Assembly: GCA_002400905.2 (NCBI GenBank)
Contig: NVRQ02000018.1
Coordinates: 1 to 33,920 of the forward strand
DNA length: 33,920 nucleotides
Direction: 5' to 3'
From: Gammaproteobacteria bacterium
Lineage (GTDB): Bacteria; Pseudomonadota; Gammaproteobacteria; GCA-2400775
Under the pieces are notes generated by a model. The model ran no database searches. It saw only the letters and a list, made by a program, of their open reading frames with translations, and was not told where the DNA came from. Below, piece by piece: positions 14,648 through 14,912 of the stretch; position 1 is the stretch's first letter, and the number at the start of each line of letters is the position of its first letter. Position numbers and translations under genes: made by a program.

Positions 14648-14912
14648 GGGGCACCTCTATTCATTGCTTATGGTCTCTGGCTTACAGACGAGTTCAGGAT
14701 CAAGGCATCATTGCGCAGGCAGGCTTGTGGTCTGTTAAGCAATGATAACGCCGAGCCTGAACTCGTCTGTAAGCCCCGTAGGGCCTGATCTGAAGCACGC
14801 ATCTACTGCGTTACAATCCTTGATAAGGCAACCAGCCTTGTCGGCGGATTGCGCCTTGCATCTGCACGCTTCAGATCAGGCAGAGGCCATAAGCAATTAA
14901 TAGAGGTGCCCT
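14648..14912. mobile_element. MITE-like multi-hairpin element in the zipA-ligA intergenic region
   Basis: Terminal inverted repeats GGGCACCTCTATTcATTGCTTATGG (14649-14673) and CCATAAGCAATTAATAGAGGTGCCC (14887-14911), 1 mismatch in 25; internal 20-bp perfect inverted repeat 14679-14698/14756-14775; internal 14-bp perfect inverted repeat 14783-14796/14868-14881; no ORF. Confidence 0.88.

Follow-up and report, generated by a model that had tools for sequence, protein, structure and literature searches.

The genes zipA and ligA are separated in the window by an element of 263 bp, a MITE of a kind defined by its fold. It would probably be moved in trans by a transposase of the IS5 family, with a fold that would act at the DNA level and ends that could be copied from one side to the other. 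By the window we mean the whole stretch of DNA that was analysed, 33,920 nt, which is contig C90 of a gammaproteobacterial genome of 2.16 Mb in 180 contigs (G000). The element belongs to a widespread superfamily, apparently without a name, whose mark is the interior: two inverted units of about 70 nt with an AAGGC/AACGC loop, and a CCCGNAGGG junction. The features of the element and its neighbours are the following:

14649–14911, + strand: whole element, 263 bp, with hairpin 1 first; delimited by the copies in its own genome, the terminal inverted repeats (TIRs), an alignment of 25 copies and the empty site in four congeners (G001–G004)
14649–14679, + strand: left TIR and outer stem, GGGCACCTCTATTCATTGCTTATGGTCTCTG, which pairs with 14881–14911
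14679–14775, + strand: hairpin 1 (HP1), with a perfect outer arm of 20 bp; it holds one unit of about 70 nt in + orientation
14702–14706, + strand: AAGGC, in the invariant internal loop of HP1, on its 5' side; near-invariant across alignments A1 and A2, with an equal offset in elements with other TIRs
14747–14751, + strand: AACGC, opposite AAGGC on the 3' side of this loop in HP1; from alignments A1 and A2 and elements with other TIRs
14775–14783, no strand: junction CCCGTAGGG, which joins the two hairpins; it resembles CCCGNAGGG in all complete elements compared
14783–14881, − strand: hairpin 2 (HP2), inverted paralogue of HP1; from the alignment of the two halves
14808–14812, − strand: GCGTT (reverse complement of AACGC), internal loop of HP2; from the landmark comparison of elements
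14853–14857, − strand: GCCTT (reverse complement of AAGGC), internal loop of HP2; from the landmark comparison of elements
14881–14911, − strand: right TIR and outer stem, partner of 14649–14679
13660–14628, + strand: zipA, upstream neighbour (PF04354, E 1.8e-38)
14944–16998, + strand: ligA, downstream neighbour (PF01653, E 4.6e-99)

The initial annotation gave the element 265 bp (14648–14912): the element is real, with one base less on each side. Its 25-bp TIR has a single mismatch, as described there, and the pairing reaches about 31 bp with two mismatches. The two internal stems are indeed perfect: one has 20 bp (14679–14698 with 14756–14775) and a nested ATCATTG/CAATGAT, which is also perfect; the other has 14 bp (14783–14796 with 14868–14881). 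The three-way junction which had been proposed, a closing TIR stem with two hairpins, is the fold of the element. Its distance to ligA, estimated as about 30 bp, is 32 bp. As single-stranded DNA the element folds with −93.6 kcal/mol, compared with −37.5 ± 3.6 for shuffled sequences (z = −15.6; none of 200 shuffles equals it). The whole element is one large quasi-palindrome: its left half and the reverse complement of its right half agree at 68%. It has no coding capacity, with stop codons in all six frames.

A genome-wide search for copies, which the initial annotation had called for, revealed a multi-copy family. In its own genome there are about 14 full or deleted copies with the ends of the window element; as a control, the reversed pattern gave 2 matches against 43 for the real one. 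Full-length copies are found in contigs C36, C171, C151, C122, C120 and C90. The shorter ones have 56–200 bp, and deleted copies as short as 56–108 bp still have paired TIRs. Several copies are found at contig ends, as is expected because repeats break assemblies. The dispersed copies, together with ends common to an autonomous IS, support its assignment as a MITE.

In four congeners (G001–G004) zipA and ligA adjoin without the element, so the insertion belongs to the lineage of G000. The spacer of these congeners, about 50–60 bp, matches the window spacer minus the element. An insertion polymorphism between species is seen at this site. A recent insertion, in line with the recent spread which had been suggested, is supported by the empty sites and by the copies in other parts of this genome. 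The window copy is not flanked by a target duplication: its flanks are TTAG and TACA. Many other copies in the same genome also lack one. At its end contig C120 carries 127 bp of the zipA tail with an element 94–95% identical, then a phosphohexomutase-like gene: this reflects either recombination between copies or two loci merged in the assembly. This second zipA tail would favour an assembly artefact in the join of zipA, element and ligA, but the adjacency of both genes in four congeners, with a matching spacer, makes such an artefact very unlikely. Elsewhere in the window, a degenerate stretch at 22362–22562 (four TGA and one TAG) has a 45% match to the helix-hairpin-helix part of LigA; it is possibly a decayed gene.

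Relatives of the element are found in many other genomes. When GTDB genomes were scanned for GGGCACCTCTATTNATTGC, at least 111 stretches matched. Among the matches listed there are full-length elements in Thiotrichaceae NORP24, NORP146, Porticoccaceae, Bermanella, HyVt-500 and others, mostly with 262–267 bp and up to 286 bp when they have small inserts. Identical flanks of 4 bp (TTAA, TTTA, TATA, TTAT) are present at many of the copies elsewhere; the target is YTAR-like, with TTAA and CTAG as the commonest sequences, plus W-rich variants. A blastn search with the full window element against plasmids and phages gave no match.

The autonomous IS for which the initial annotation had proposed a search does exist. 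A GGGCACCTCTATTAATT end bounds an intact insertion sequence of the IS5 family, 1243 bp long with TTTT flanks, in a Gloeomargaritales cyanobacterium (L287:6332–7574). The first 17 bases of the left TIR are the same as its ends, bar one variable base. Its transposase has 343 aa (NF033581 IS5_4, E 1.7e-80); there are also two truncated relatives, L214 (914 bp) and L265. Among the matches listed, an intact IS with the TIR of the window is found only in the cyanobacterium. G000 has only a relic, in contig C61: a decayed IS5_4 relative with TIR GGGAATCTCTATTAATTG after TTTTTTAA, in which a fragment of 81 aa matches IS5_4. Of the PF01609 loci in this and related genomes, none listed has the TIR of the MITE at both ends; G004 has no DDE_Tnp_1 match despite its many elements. 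At L161 there is only a distantly similar IS end.

The window also contains an ORF of 116 aa at 17936–18286, a partial IS5-family transposase (PF01609 E 2.8e-7; NF033581 E 2.5e-10) which is apparently a remnant; the TIR of the MITE was not found around it. Other short elements, of about 119–180 bp, have a GGGCACCTCTATT end and unrelated interiors. They are found in Chlorobiaceae (L189, L209) and in cyanobacteria (L197, L204, L225), and are probably independent MITEs of a common IS group.

The interior is also found inside a second set of ends, of GGTCTGTTGACGTTTT type. Such elements are present in plasmids of Azotobacter chroococcum (263 bp, CTAG flanks) and P. aeruginosa (263 bp), and in Halomonas (262 bp, CTAG flanks). 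Ends of this type bound annotated IS5-family ISs in Aeromonas caviae (854 bp, CTAG flanks) and in Paracoccus (836 bp), whose transposase is NF033580 IS5_3. The IS5_3 and IS5_4 transposases have no significant alignment with each other. Since the GGTCTGTTGACGTTTT-type ends match those of IS5_3 elements, one interior goes with ends from two IS5 subgroups that are distant from each other. No IS turned up for the majority of the other TIR types.

HP1 and HP2 are inverted copies of a single unit of about 70 nt, joined by CCCGNAGGG. The order within the unit is arm, CAAGGC, stem, tip, stem, AACGCNG, arm. Its covariance model (R1) matches HP1 at 14693–14762 on the + strand and HP2 at 14798–14867 on the − strand. 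In G000 the model detects at least 67 units, in G004 79; they often form + / − pairs about 104 bp apart, and most of them lack the GGGCACC end. With a threshold of E ≤ 1e-5, which is rough due to a short calibration, units are found in 33 of 114 gammaproteobacterial genera. In a phylum sample they appear in 25 of 150 genomes, 13 of these outside Gammaproteobacteria. The pairing of units at a fixed spacing and the many genomes without matches make chance matches unlikely.

The AAGGC/AACGC loop is near-invariant in every unit and class; the stems on its sides are hypervariable and co-vary. The three-way junction recurs inside other terminal repeats in the cases inspected. In 13 elements with different ends the total length is 262–268 bp, with AAGGC at positions 53–57 (where exact), AACGC at 98–103, the junction at 127–132 and GCGTT at 160–164: the landmarks keep their positions within about 5 bp under at least 10 different terminal repeats. 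In a wider scan we have found 43 distinct complete elements.

Repeated hairpins in inverted pairs are also found in REP/BIME sequences, which have alternating orientation, and Y1_Tnp genes are present in 4 of 5 congeners. We give hardly any credit to the idea that the element is a hairpin of this kind mobilised by a Y1 (REP-associated) transposase. The units have about 70 nt and are part of an element of 263 bp that has paired TIRs and duplicated flanks, as against REPs of 20–40 bp, which are tagged by GTAG/CGTC and linked to Y1 transposases (PMC3733652, PMC2817692). The co-occurrence of Y1_Tnp with the units was rejected, since G002 has 7 units and no Y1_Tnp.

Some elements have additional modules. 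L130 (G004:C136), L136 (G004:C10) and L143 (G068:C112), from two genera, have an insert of about 24 bp, CACCAACAGTAGGCGCTTTAGGCGA, inside the hairpin stems: it is a small module of its own. In L060, L062, L063 and L134 an insert of 18 bp (GAGCACCCCGAGGGCACG-like) is found at one position of HP1, and related CACCCCAAGGG modules are present in G004 (L132, L138). Single-hairpin elements, with one unit and another IS5-like end, GGGAACCTCTGATYTATTC, are found in contigs C103 and C67 of G000 (L341, L343, L344).

A covariance analysis of the copies had also been recommended at the start. In 25 aligned full-length copies, 49 of the 92 predicted pairs have changed on both sides, including 15 of the 20 pairs of the HP1 outer arm, and 96.4% of the cells are paired. 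No slid version and none of 500 shuffles comes close to the observed number of changes on both sides. These counts are inflated by relatedness, yet from one lineage to another the arms of HP1 and HP2 have wholly different sequences that still match each other as complements.

A conserved RNA tolerates G-U pairs on its own strand, but not A-C. A first count of mismatches, 80:37, had an RNA-like look; in pairs predicted from both strands it became 44 G-T to 36 A-C. In the inner stems, defined by their position beside the loop motifs, the G-T:A-C ratio is 64:14 on the AAGGC strand (101 units), and about 16:10 after thinning similar stems. We read the arms as a reflection mainly of a DNA-level process, with a possible hint of single-strand use. 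Template switching between the arms of inverted repeats is known to homogenise the arms and to invert the spacer (PMC8604942, PMC8794818). In one element (L243:2230–2508) HP2 is inverted relative to all other copies, as template switching or recombination between arms would give.

The initial annotation had suggested a role for ligA as terminator, RNA-processing site or attenuator. A cis-acting RNA element, be it a terminator, an RNase III site or an attenuator, acting on ligA and similar genes, would agree with the very stable RNA fold predicted on both strands and with the G-T excess on one strand of the inner stems before thinning. Neisserial NEMIS are processed as RNA hairpins (PMC2229807). 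The remaining data make this explanation improbable. None of the three roles is upheld: no intrinsic terminator (GC-rich stem and T run) was found, Rfam gave only chance miRNA-like matches at gathering and relaxed thresholds, G-T and A-C mismatches are about equally frequent in pairs common to both strands, and the gene context is random. The neighbours of the 52 classifiable copies are tandem in 28 cases, convergent in 13 and divergent in 11, as expected for random intergenic placement. The empty zipA–ligA site in four congeners is also against an RNA role. We see no sign of a conserved role in regulation; ligA may be affected locally.

The mechanism which we favour is based on DNA. A transposase of the IS5 family would recognise the terminal repeats, move the non-autonomous element in trans and insert it where the target is short and W-rich: TTAA, TTTA or TATA, with CTAG for the sister group. 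The fold may act as a lagging-strand hairpin or as a cruciform, which would bring the two ends together for transposition. Template switching in replication would homogenise the arms and could flip a hairpin. In a palindromic element a new end on one side might be copied to the other; in this way one interior could pass between different IS5 transposases. More tentatively, this fold, which keeps its geometry and its mismatched AAGGC/AACGC loop across Pseudomonadota, may be a portable chassis which parasitises unrelated IS5 transposases: it would be recognised, or used in transposition, in the form of single-stranded or cruciform DNA, and its palindromic plan would allow a new end to be copied to both sides.

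It is also conceivable, though we find it somewhat unlikely, that this is an ordinary IS5-derived MITE with an idle fold. Template switching would keep its arms complementary and the interior would be kept by descent and horizontal spread. The nearly strand-neutral mismatches are those predicted by a mutational process of DNA, the published data on template switching agree with it, and the shortest deleted copies retain paired TIRs. However such a process should erase a mismatched loop of 5 nt, yet AAGGC/AACGC is near-invariant beside hypervariable stems; length and landmark spacing are also constant across unrelated TIRs. The constant length and the persistent loop, which homogenisation alone should erase, are our main reason to suggest that the fold is selected.

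Among known systems, the closest published relative in kind is MITEPsy1 of Pseudomonas syringae, an IS5-type MITE from ISPsy2 which was trapped while transposing, with CTAG or YTAA targets (PMC3189936). It is also non-autonomous, with IS5-type ends and a target duplication of 4 bp (CTAG/YTAA), but it has 100 bp, TIRs of 18 bp (GGAAGG...) and no reported double-hairpin interior. RUP of Streptococcus pneumoniae is a MITE also tied to an IS by common TIRs, but it has 107 bp, is of IS630 type and has a TA target (PMC2229807). Correia/NEMIS, ERIC, RPE and other small palindromic MITEs are intergenic palindromic repeats of 100–200 bp (PMC2229807). Unlike our element, they all form a single long stem-loop, without two inverted units and an invariant loop, and are restricted to a genus or family. 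CIR of Caulobacter and Brucella has two arms and a linker (PMC2229807); it differs by its GANTC motif and the lack of a reported TIR, and belongs to a different class. No description of the double-hairpin interior was found in Rfam or in the mainly open-access literature searched by TIR strings and by topic.

Most bacterial MITE families have been described species by species and are defined by their ends; the element presented here is defined by its interior fold. This fold is present in about a quarter of the gammaproteobacterial genera in the sample, under ends which vary to suit different IS5 subgroups. Strong covariation can arise at the DNA level, and alone it is no proof of a functional RNA. 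The family makes it possible to test for selection on the shape of transposon DNA, not only on its ends, and to test how non-autonomous elements change their transposase partners.
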